Shown one piece after another: positions 1 through 30,865 of a stretch of DNA of 30,865 nt. The DNA is taken from the IMG/VR virus record IMGVR_UViG_3300020377_000005, positions 1 through 30,865 of that record; one strand, 5' to 3'. A model generated the notes under the pieces. The model was not told where the DNA came from. It worked only from the letters and a program-made list of their open reading frames with translations, and did no database searches. The number at the start of each line of letters is the position of its first letter. Position 1 is the first letter of the stretch. Position numbers and translations under genes: made by a program. The stretch comes from a virus.

Positions 1-55
1 TTTTATACACCATCGTATCTTTTATTCATTTTATTTACTAGCCCCTTAATTAATT
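1..55. repeat. 55-bp direct terminal overlap (contig circularisation)
   Basis: Bases 1-55 are identical to 30811-30865. An exact direct overlap of this size at contig ends is typical of an assembler closing a circular or circularly permuted genome, so the unique genome is about 30,810 bp. The overlap includes the last codons of the replication initiator gene and part of a late-promoter motif. It is more likely an assembly overlap than a biological terminal repeat. Confidence 0.9.
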
Positions 56-1133
56 GCTTTGTATCTTTGGGTTTACTTACCTTGTTCTGCCATATGCTTT
101 TGAAATAAGCTATCGTGTATGGTGGTCTTGTTCTATCCTGGCTACACTTCTTCAGCTTCTTTGTTACCTCATCCATGAAGCTATCAATCGTCACTCCAGT
201 TTGTATGATCTCTTCTGCTATGGCTTCTTCTCTTTTGGTCCATCGCCATTGTCCTCGTGTCTTGCAGATATCGTCTAGTGCATGTGAATAACTTCTTAGC
301 AATTCAAAAACATTATCTTTAATATTATTATTATTAGTTATAGTAATATAGTTCTGTACAACATCATTGTGTTGTGTATCGGCACAACCTCTAGTGTTGT
401 ATAACTTACTCTTATTCACAACCTGACGTTGTATATCTTGGGCCTTTAAATAGCCTTTTTCTATGGGTGAAAGTAGGCCACAACCGATCTTATTCCAGGC
501 ATCAATAGTCTGTTTACCTGACAAATAAGTGACCATAGCATTGTATACTGTATCGTATGGAAAGTACTCAGTCTCATCCTTCAAGTACTTTTGAGCAATA
601 TCATTAGCAAGTTTATCTTGTGCTGGTGATAACTTATTCTGTTTCTTTTCTATCTTCTTAAATGTTTCTTCTGCTTTATTCTGTTCTACAATGGGATCAG
701 TAGATGTTTTTATTAGCTGAGTATCAGTTATACCTGGATCATATATGATACGATAAGTAGCTGTCTTTTTACCTTTCTGACGTAATGCATTCTCATTGAG
801 TATCTTCTTTATATATCCCCAATCAATAAGCTTTACTATTTGCCTGGATATAGCTTGCTGAGACCGGTTTAGTCTTTTAGCCAGGAGAAGCTGAGAAGGG
901 AATGCAGTACCTGATTGACCTGAGACATAAGAACATAAAACACATAAGACCTGGAGTGCTGATGGATTGTTAAGTATCCTGGTATCGGCTAAAGCTCTTG
1001 AAGGTATATTGATGTAAGGTGAGGGTGATTGCTCATTAGATATTCTATACTTCTTAGGTGGCAATGTTATCTGCTCTCTTGCCTTCAATATCTCCTGGGC
1101 CTTATCAATCTTAGGAACATCAATCATATTCAT
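3..1133 (-). CDS. Winged-helix replication initiator protein
   Basis: The 376-aa product has a winged helix-turn-helix domain at about residues 55-130, whose recognition-helix region reads SQQAISRQIVKLIDWGYIKK. An Asn-rich linker (about 240-265) follows, then a C-terminal helical domain (about 270-376) containing WRWTKREEA and PPYTIAYFKSIW. This plan of N-terminal DNA binding, linker and C-terminal partner domain is that of phage/plasmid initiators such as lambda O and DnaT-like replisome organisers. The phage has no polymerase or helicase gene, so the protein probably loads the host replisome. It is the last gene of the leftward operon, 1 bp after the nuclease gene. Its linker-coding DNA holds three dyad repeats beside an AT-rich tract, a likely origin. 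A purely regulatory role is possible but less likely. Confidence 0.7.
   Translation of the reverse strand: MNMIDVPKIDKAQEILKAREQITLPPKKYRISNEQSPSPYINIPSRALADTRILNNPSALQVLCVLCSYVSGQSGTAFPSQLLLAKRLNRSQQAISRQIVKLIDWGYIKKILNENALRQKGKKTATYRIIYDPGITDTQLIKTSTDPIVEQNKAEETFKKIEKKQNKLSPAQDKLANDIAQKYLKDETEYFPYDTVYNAMVTYLSGKQTIDAWNKIGCGLLSPIEKGYLKAQDIQRQVVNKSKLYNTRGCADTQHNDVVQNYITITNNNNIKDNVFELLRSYSHALDDICKTRGQWRWTKREEAIAEEIIQTGVTIDSFMDEVTKKLKKCSQDRTRPPYTIAYFKSIWQNKVSKPKDTKQLIKGLVNKMNKRYDGV
305..435. other. Candidate replication origin: three dyad iterons plus AT-rich tract
   Basis: Three imperfect palindromes with arms ACAAC and GTTGT lie at 358-375, 384-400 and 418-432, with arm gaps of 8, 7 and 5 nt. 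GTTGT is followed by GTA or ATA in each. They are flanked at 305-352 by a nearly pure A/T tract, a likely unwinding element. Everything lies inside the initiator gene, in the part encoding its Asn-rich linker, and read along the gene the iterons come before the AT tract. Lambda ori inside gene O has the same order. The repeats are in different reading phases and do not encode a repeated peptide, so they are not a protein-level repeat. Function is inferred. Confidence 0.5.
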
Positions 1134-2062: not shown

Positions 2063-2418
2063 TGGAACAAATTAGACTAGGTGTTAAGTTTTCAAAAACA
2101 AAATATCTTGTAGACGAAGTTATAAATTTTGGTGAAGTTGTCCAGGAAGACCAGCCATTTGAGGGTGACCTTAACGACAGATATGTAAAGTTTTGTTTCG
2201 GTATCAAAAAGGTATCAGCATCAACTATGGTTGATGTCGATGTCTTTGTTGAGTTTTATAAGGACCTTATAAATCGAGCAAGCATTGATTACCTGGAAGG
2301 TCATTATGATAGCGATGAAGATAGTGATGTCTATTATAGAAAAGGTGGTGAGTACATATACAAAGTTGCTCAGTCTCTTGAAAAGAAACATAAATCAATA
2401 ATCCAAGGAGCAAACTAA
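2062..2418 (+). CDS. Unknown early protein, 118 aa, acidic
   Basis: The start overlaps the previous stop by one base and is preceded by GAGGAG, so translation is coupled. The product is acidic, with a DSDEDSDVYY patch at about residues 83-92, no membrane segment and no motif I recognise. Predicted strands in the first half suggest a small mixed fold. Its 3' end carries a copy of the junction GGAGCAAA-TAATG that also closes the preceding gene, so the recombinase start is coupled in the same way. An acidic DNA-mimic type inhibitor is one speculative possibility. Confidence 0.6.
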   Translation: MEQIRLGVKFSKTKYLVDEVINFGEVVQEDQPFEGDLNDRYVKFCFGIKKVSASTMVDVDVFVEFYKDLINRASIDYLEGHYDSDEDSDVYYRKGGEYIYKVAQSLEKKHKSIIQGAN

Positions 2419-3170
2419 TGAGGGTTAAGAATACAGCCGGTCAAGAACATACTGGTGTCTATTGTGCCTATGTTAGGGTATCAACTGACAGTCAGGATGT
2501 TGCCAGGCAAGAAATGGAGATCAAGAAGTGGCTCAATGGTGGTGATCACCAGGTCATATGGTTTAGGGAAGAGGGTGTCTCAGGTAAAATTTCACCTTCA
2601 AAAAGACCTGAGCTATCTAAATGTATCGAGACTGCCAAGGTCAATAAAGGTACAATCATTGTAGCTGACCTTGAAAGATTCAGTCGTAGGATGCAAGACA
2701 CATTGGACTTCTTTGAAGAGAAGTTGGAGAAGGGCAAGATCAAATTTGTTGTCTGCAATGAGCCTGAGATATCAGAAAGCTGGGAAAGGTTTTCTATGAA
2801 AGCTTACTTCGGTGCTATGGAAAGACGTAGAATAGCTGAAAGAACTAAGTCAGGTCTAACTAAGATAAAAGAAGAGCTAAGAGAAAAGGGTAAGTATCAA
2901 ACCAGGTCAGGCCGTACTATCACTAAGCTTGGCATCCATGATCATATGGATAAGGCAAGAGCTAGGGCTGGTGAAGTAGTGAAGGCTGAGAGTGATGGTT
3001 TTGCTCAGATTGTAGGACCAACTATCCAGGCCCTTCTAAACTCAGGCATGACTTATAGAGAAGTCGCAATCAACTTAAATCAAATAGGTACAACAACTGC
3101 AAGAGGTGGTGAGTGGTATGCTTCTACAGTTCGTAACGTAATCAAAAGATTGGAGAGTATGAATGAATAA
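2418..3170 (+). CDS. Serine site-specific recombinase (resolvase/invertase family)
   Basis: The 250-aa product has the resolvase catalytic domain (about 13-150): YVRVSTDSQD with Arg20 and nucleophile Ser22, then ADLERFSR with Asp84, Arg87 and Arg90, and the E-helix segment AMERRRIAERTKSGL. The C-terminal part (about 190-248) has the small DNA-binding motif MTYREVAINLNQIG followed by a Trp-containing STVRNVIKRL segment, as in 'recombinase' family proteins. At 250 aa it is much shorter than typical large serine integrases (about 450-550 aa). It may therefore act as a resolvase, invertase or compact integrase. It overlaps its neighbours by 1 and 8 nt in the early operon. I could not identify its crossover sites. 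Confidence 0.85.
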   Translation: MRVKNTAGQEHTGVYCAYVRVSTDSQDVARQEMEIKKWLNGGDHQVIWFREEGVSGKISPSKRPELSKCIETAKVNKGTIIVADLERFSRRMQDTLDFFEEKLEKGKIKFVVCNEPEISESWERFSMKAYFGAMERRRIAERTKSGLTKIKEELREKGKYQTRSGRTITKLGIHDHMDKARARAGEVVKAESDGFAQIVGPTIQALLNSGMTYREVAINLNQIGTTTARGGEWYASTVRNVIKRLESMNE

Positions 3171-9640: not shown

Positions 9641-10246
9641 TTAATCTCCTTGTGCTATGTAATACCAACCAGTAGCAATGTATTTATCATGTGTGTAAAC
9701 TGCATTACCTCTGTGGGTATGTGTCCAATCGGCTGGGAAAAAACATACTCGACCTTTCTTTGGCTGTACCTTTAAACCATATTCTAAAAATTCTGTTTCG
9801 CCTTCACCTTCAGGTATATCGTTTAGGTAAATAGTCCATGTTAAACACCTACTACCATAATCTGCAACACCTCTTTCACAATGCCATGTATGAAAGCCAC
9901 CTTTTGGTGGAGTCTTTTGCACCTTTACAACATGACTATAAAAATTATGACAAACACCCAATGATGGATATTCTTCCATATATAATTTTAAACCTTCATC
10001 TAATACTGCATTTGTTTCTTGTGCCATATCTAAAGTATTATTATGTTGCTCAGAAAAAAATATAGATAAGTCTTTTCTTGCTTTTGCACCATATTGCTCT
10101 GTTCCTGAGTTTAAACTTGTTTGCATAAGAGAAGTGTTACTTGCGATCTCCTCAAACTTAGCAATCATTCTATTACAATAATCATGTGATGCTATGTCAT
10201 ATGAACTAATAAAAGTTAGATTTTTTACTTTAGTCATATCATTCAT
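9641..10246 (-). CDS. 2OG-Fe(II) oxygenase (prolyl-4-hydroxylase-like)
   Basis: The 201-aa product has the jelly-roll dioxygenase core: GGFHTWHCE with His122 and Glu124 as an HxE iron pair, strands TWTIYLND and GETEFLEYG, then KKGRVCFFPADW with distal His178 in HTHRGN and Lys188 in DKYIATGWYY as the likely 2-oxoglutarate contact. Most family members use HxD; the Glu is an accepted variant. Such enzymes hydroxylate Pro, Asn or other side chains. It is encoded between the Cys-rich protein (ATGA overlap) and the assembly-like protein, downstream of the fibre. Modification of fibre or other virion protein is therefore a reasonable guess; DNA or host targets cannot be excluded. Confidence 0.82.
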   Translation of the reverse strand: MNDMTKVKNLTFISSYDIASHDYCNRMIAKFEEIASNTSLMQTSLNSGTEQYGAKARKDLSIFFSEQHNNTLDMAQETNAVLDEGLKLYMEEYPSLGVCHNFYSHVVKVQKTPPKGGFHTWHCERGVADYGSRCLTWTIYLNDIPEGEGETEFLEYGLKVQPKKGRVCFFPADWTHTHRGNAVYTHDKYIATGWYYIAQGD

Positions 10247-30804: not shown

Positions 30805-30819
30805 TCTAGCTTTTATACA
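30805..30819 (-). promoter_or_regulatory. Late promoter motif before the packaging genes
   Basis: The minus strand reads TGTATAAAAGCTAGA, a full match to the shared TATAAANNCTAGA core. No -35 box is present. In the circular genome it lies directly after the replication initiator gene and would start a 140-nt leader running through the GC-rich element to the 86-aa gene. Confidence 0.6.
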
Positions 30820-30865
30820 CCATCGTATCTTTTATTCATTTTATTTACTAGCCCCTTAATTAATT
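30811..30865. repeat. second copy of the 55-bp terminal overlap
   Basis: Exact copy of bases 1-55. If it is removed, the 3' end of the initiator gene joins directly to the packaging-region leader, with the late promoter motif 30805-30819 lying across the junction. Confidence 0.9.

Follow-up and report, generated by a model that had tools for sequence, protein, structure and literature searches.

A site composed of three ACAAC/GTTGT dyads (iterons) and an adjoining A/T tract, which lies within the replication initiator gene of a marine phage, is very probably the replication origin of the phage, and would be read by the protein that the same gene encodes. The origin reading is supported by the constraint acting on this DNA element, by the coupling of the dyads to the recognition helix of the initiator and by their tie to DnaA boxes and to the A/T tract, as judged from the sequences compared. 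The DnaA boxes and a coupled change of helix and iterons, both unseen in a preliminary description of this DNA, are the stronger evidence for an origin. In this way, one gene gives a predicted binding site, DnaA partner sites and an unwinding element across a wide family of uncultivated podovirus-like phages, for which no replication start had been recognised hitherto and whose nearest cultured relative is MEP301. The dyad site may also serve as a marker for locating origins in viral metagenomes.

The array and the gene that carries it

The window, i.e. the whole stretch of DNA analysed (30,865 bases), contains no ACAACN4-9GTTGT other than the three dyads (table 1), which span positions 358-432, exactly the 75 bp within which they had first been reported. 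Dinucleotide shuffles (n=100) gave a mean of 0.18 dyads, with three dyads in 0/100; the array and the adjoining A/T tract exceed chance. The tract, initially described as almost pure A/T, is 89% A/T over 301-353, and one of its 40-mers shares the highest A/T content found in the window. Both elements fall, as had also been proposed, within the linker-coding part of the gene (3-1133, minus strand; codons about 233-277), of which residues 233-266 are predicted to be disordered. The claim that the dyads are mutually out of phase at the codon level stands for dyad 2 and fails for dyads 1 and 3 (numbered in the gene sense), which share a reading frame; family-wide, 43 of 58 genes have their iterons in different frames. 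The spacers are unequal (N5, N7 and N8, unlike the 18-bp iterons of lambda), so that a single rigid dimer may be unable to fit every dyad, and N8 is the spacer in 80 of 113 family iterons.

Table 1. Features of the initiator gene, the putative origin and the recombinase gene (window coordinates).
Feature	Position	Strand	Remarks
Replication initiator gene, 376 aa	3..1133	-	N-terminal part: HTH_36 E 9.7e-09, phrog_270 replication initiation protein E 2.2e-06; model
Winged-helix DNA-binding domain, aa 41-130	744..1013	-	pLDDT 83-90 for the most part, two blocks being lower
Recognition helix, aa 92-105, begins Gln92-Gln93	819..860	-	helix bounds from model; Gln-Gln accompanies ACAAC dyads
Disordered linker, aa 233-266, coded by iteron array	336..437	-	pLDDT 35-39; synonymous differences 0.9% in core codons
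Iteron 1 (gene sense), ACAAC-N5-GTTGT, 15 bp	418..432		arms invariant in all near relatives covering the site
DnaA box TTATTCACA, overlaps iteron 1	412..420	+	invariant in near relatives covering the site
Iteron 2, ACAAC-N7-GTTGT, 17 bp	384..400		conserved in near relatives
Iteron 3, ACAAC-N8-GTTGT, 18 bp, adjoins A/T tract	358..375		conserved in near relatives
A/T tract, 89% A/T, presumed DNA unwinding element	301..353		AT-richest 40-mer downstream of iterons in 40/42 genes
Second DnaA box TTATTCACA, beyond A/T tract	283..291	-	near relatives have it either exact or with one mismatch
Small serine recombinase gene	2418-3170	+	

The order of domains in the predicted model of the initiator is winged helix, middle domain, disordered linker and C-terminal helical domain, the linker being flanked on both sides by better-predicted parts; in the same model the recognition helix begins with the Gln pair. 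A structure search with the winged-helix domain returned many winged-helix chains at Z 6-7.6, including the initiator structure 4pt7 (Z 6.8); as far as the model goes, the likeness of fold to 4pt7 and 5kbj is generic. For the C-terminal domain, which has a mean pLDDT of 74.8 when modelled alone, there was no Pfam family above the cut-off and no match to solved folds, so that its route of helicase recruitment is one that we infer. The RepA_N domain (PF06970) was absent among the Pfam matches of the initiator up to E 0.1, and its O-like PHROG matches were weak only and concerned chiefly the winged-helix part.

A 55-bp direct terminal repeat is present at 1-55 and 30811-30865. The genome can accordingly be drawn as a circle of 30,810 bp, with the end of the initiator gene occurring at both ends of the window, and the record probably represents a complete phage genome with a circular map. 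Among its genes are T7-like ones for capsid assembly, portal and tail; RecE/RecT-like proteins and a serine recombinase are also encoded, and a 2OG-Fe(II) oxygenase-like gene (9641-10246, minus strand) stands among the late genes. The 31 window proteins scanned gave 0 matches to DNA polymerase or replicative helicase families, from which a need for the host replication machinery is likely, and no P-type helicase loader was found among the window proteins scanned (part of the ORFs, most of them against one library). The GC skew, which had been suggested as a check on the origin, was computed and tracks gene direction here, being uninformative on this point. Relatives of the initiator were not found in the collection of genome contigs, which therefore pointed to no host or prophage; the plasmid search yielded two weak helix-turn-helix matches only, and the phage collection yielded MEP301 and ten Rhodobacter phages, again as helix-turn-helix matches, with no ACAAC/GTTGT-type dyads in the gene of RcKai, a match among the latter.

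Constraint on the site and its coupling to the initiator

Loss of the dyads under a conserved protein had been named beforehand as the observation that would speak against an origin; instead, arms and spacings are kept in all 13 near relatives (collected by protein similarity) that have a complete linker, and the arms are invariant, not covarying. In five of these 13 (L011-L015) the array is intact in a protein without the approximately 75 residues directly before it. Two length classes of relatives can be told apart, the shorter of which has no middle domain (window codons about 161-233). When ten representative genes of 16 were compared, near-identical or truncated relatives being left out, synonymous differences amounted to 9 in 1,000 comparisons (0.9%) over 26 core codons, as opposed to 2,906 in 10,122 (28.7%) in the rest of the gene, and the lowest figure in 217 other codon windows was 8.1%. 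The constrained element extends into the A/T tract. Synonymous suppression is also found in the distant L085 clade, where 34 genes were compared out of a sample of 80 (from 490 relatives counted) after leaving out 7 truncated or variant genes and then near-copies. In L036, whose protein is 51% identical to the window initiator, four dyads occupy the matching place. The initiator of that contig is preceded by an ORF (398-952) with an NPPY motif, presumably methyltransferase-like on that account, and followed by an SSB-like ORF (2351-2869).

Site and gene also find each other. A DNA-only scan of viral contigs for paired dyads returned at least 119 stretches, no fewer than 105 of them new loci; among the matches listed, the dyads lie inside an ORF homologous to the window initiator in 43 of the 105, versus 0 of 58 loci in a control scan with rearranged arms (AACAC/GTGTT; Fisher p 2e-10, a value that is overstated since related loci are not independent). 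The homology test covered first 70 of the 105 loci with two queries (29 found) and then all 105 with seven more queries, which came from the scanned set itself, so that the test set was favoured over the control. Searches by protein only gave 140 homologues in four sets. At least two dyads are present in 103 of the 106 homologues with the Gln-Gln recognition helix, the exceptions (L010, L296 and L303) all being cut by contig ends, and ACAAC dyads are present in one of the 34 homologues without that helix, namely L327, which is cut before the helix; 29 of these 34 belong to one sister clade (MEP301 type), so that few independent events are represented. Taken across the family, these sequences indicate that the dyads follow the recognition helix of the initiator.

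As for the partner sites, TTATNCACA, which we take to be the consensus form of the DnaA box, occurs only twice in the window, both copies flanking the array; with 2.16 expected by chance in the whole window, the boxes are unusual in position only. Among 46 loci, 38 copies lie within 120 bp of the dyads (14.4 kb) versus 9 in the other 405 kb, and in the L085 clade (80 loci) the linker region, 20.8 kb in all, contains 68 copies versus 4 in 419 kb elsewhere. An exact box near the dyads is absent in 18 of the 46 loci, so that the boxes are not universal. The A/T tract has a preferred side: in 40 of 42 non-redundant genes, and despite a wide range of base composition, the 40-mer richest in A/T within 250 bp is found on the downstream side of the iterons.

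The coupled change is found in L292, which the tree places within the Gln-Gln/ACAAC genes and which shares 66% identity with L249. Where the recognition helix of L249 has SQQAVSK, that of L292 has SRQAVSK, with Arg in place of the first Gln. All six iteron half-sites of L292 are GCAAC/GTTGC, four of them paired in two palindromes (arms of 8 bp) and the other two standing singly, while the L249 linker has ACAAC/GTTGT throughout. One further GCAAC is present farther down in L292, near the A/T part, and two non-iteron ACAAC words at matching places in L292 and L249 are unchanged in both. The pairing of Gln with A and of Arg with G is the textbook base preference. The swap is that of a single contig, whose winged helix also departs from those of its relatives at further residues, and the odds appear evenly balanced that, in this large uncultivated phage family, one position of the recognition helix sets the outermost iteron base (Gln-A, Arg-G), one residue and matching changes in the same gene being enough to switch replication specificity. 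If this were true, the self-contained gene would provide a natural series of mutually non-interfering replicons, and which residue reads which base, a matter usually settled by crystallography, would become testable from natural sequences.

Proposed mechanism and alternative explanations

In the mechanism that we consider most likely, the winged-helix domain, probably as a dimer, would read each ACAAC...GTTGT palindrome via its Gln-Gln helix, a first step for which the coupled change in L292 gives indirect support, and host DnaA would bind the flanking TTATNCACA boxes. The array would distort the DNA, the A/T tract on the downstream side of the gene would open, and the C-terminal domain together with DnaA would bring in the host helicase and replisome, presumably for theta replication.

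The initiator might, on the other hand, bind the dyads not to open an origin but to exert control, be it by autoregulation, copy-number handcuffing or fork arrest. The initiators of iteron replicons can indeed also repress and handcuff, and the coupled change in L292 speaks to binding specificity, not to function. However, DnaA boxes and a directional A/T tract packed at the dyad site would be needless for control alone, and the dyads are about 700 nt into the coding region, far from the gene start, all of which makes this alternative improbable.

The best non-origin reading is that of a res-like resolution site for the serine recombinase encoded in the same genome. The three dyads with their unequal spacers are reminiscent of Tn3-type res sites, and the recombinase is present in 21 of 23 records searched, picked from the family and from pattern matches, a co-occurrence for which this reading was taken seriously. 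It is nevertheless highly improbable: MEP301-type phages have the recombinase in all nine records searched (of 31, MEP301 included) but dyads in none of 29 initiator genes or their flanks (29 of 30 genes, the truncated L235 being left out), and the dyads, which are part of the initiator gene and stand beside DnaA boxes, are separated from the recombinase gene by about 2 kb. Furthermore, the homologue survey and L292 have the dyads following the recognition helix, the coupled change in the latter tying them to the initiator and not to the recombinase. A res site was set aside on the grounds of the MEP301-type recombinase without dyads and of L292.

That the conservation stems from the protein linker or from RNA structure is hardly credible, since, although near relatives have fairly similar linker peptides, the linker is predicted to be disordered, and frozen synonymous sites, mixed reading frames and arms that are invariant rather than covarying make a coding or RNA constraint very unlikely.

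Comparison with known systems

The layout of an origin inside its initiator gene, which is the reading preferred here, is already known from lambda O, SPP1, pSK41 and P1. The initiator family looks new; no description of it was found in titles and abstract openings, which is weak evidence, subscription journals being largely outside that search. On its sequences, the family is notable for its breadth and for what appears to be one natural change of specificity.

The MEP301-type phages of OM43 resemble the window phage in the portal (57.5% identity), the serine recombinase and a short related winged-helix protein, but differ in that their 29 initiator genes have neither linker dyads nor the Gln-Gln helix; no comparable repeated-dyad array was seen in the MEP301-type genes examined (n=10). 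The available text of the MEP301 paper reports no polymerase and names no initiator or origin (PMC8024684). Two contigs of this type (L226 and L232) have a pair of TGTTG-armed dyads 18 bp apart, about 400-440 nt into the initiator gene. A more distant helix-turn-helix gene without ACAAC dyads (L330, from 3001) contains repeated CTTGTTCA/TGAACAAG words, which are perhaps another intragenic iteron set.

For P1, oriL is described as a presumed origin that the initiator gene repL contains, together with an A/T region; its two DnaA sites proved dispensable, and the term 'iteron' is not used in the available text (PMC9948254). The repC gene of repABC replicons has the intragenic origin layout with, in the part of the source available, neither iterons nor DnaA boxes (PMC3155836). 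Rep_3 iteron plasmids have DnaA boxes at the origin, as at the window array, but their iterons are direct repeats, whereas the window units are inverted repeats. The same layout is described for SPP1 oriL in gene 38 (PMC6316719), which has direct repeats in place of the palindromes of the window; SPP1 also has its own helicase, loader and second origin.

In the rep genes of pSK41 and the chimeric pPR9, according to the available sections of a review, the initiator boxes are central and code for the linker, the N-terminal domain of pPR9 is pfam13730, the Pfam family also of the window initiator, and DnaA boxes were not detected in staphylococcal plasmids (PMC5703833). The pSK41 initiators are, however, RepA_N proteins, unlike the window initiator, which has no RepA_N match.

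In lambda and Stx phages the origin is in the middle of the initiator gene, with dyad iterons followed by an AT-rich tract, as the consulted portions of the sources describe (PMC7466680, PMC5043065). The likeness to lambda O in place and order was borne out when recomputed on lambda, where the iterons occupy O nt 349-433 and are followed, from nt 436, by the 40-mer that is richest in A/T in the whole gene. The term 'lambda-O-style', used in the preliminary description, holds for the layout and not for homology, the best BLAST E value of the family proteins compared with lambda O being 3.8. Lambda iterons are equal, of 18 bp and of the ATCCC... type, whereas those of the window are of 15, 17 and 18 bp; the lambda stretch examined has no TTATNCACA, as opposed to two at the window array; and lambda has its P partner, a P-like protein not being seen among the window proteins scanned. 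Common to the lambdoid O/ori and to the putative origin described here is the position of the array between the DNA-binding and the C-terminal domains of the protein that it encodes in part.
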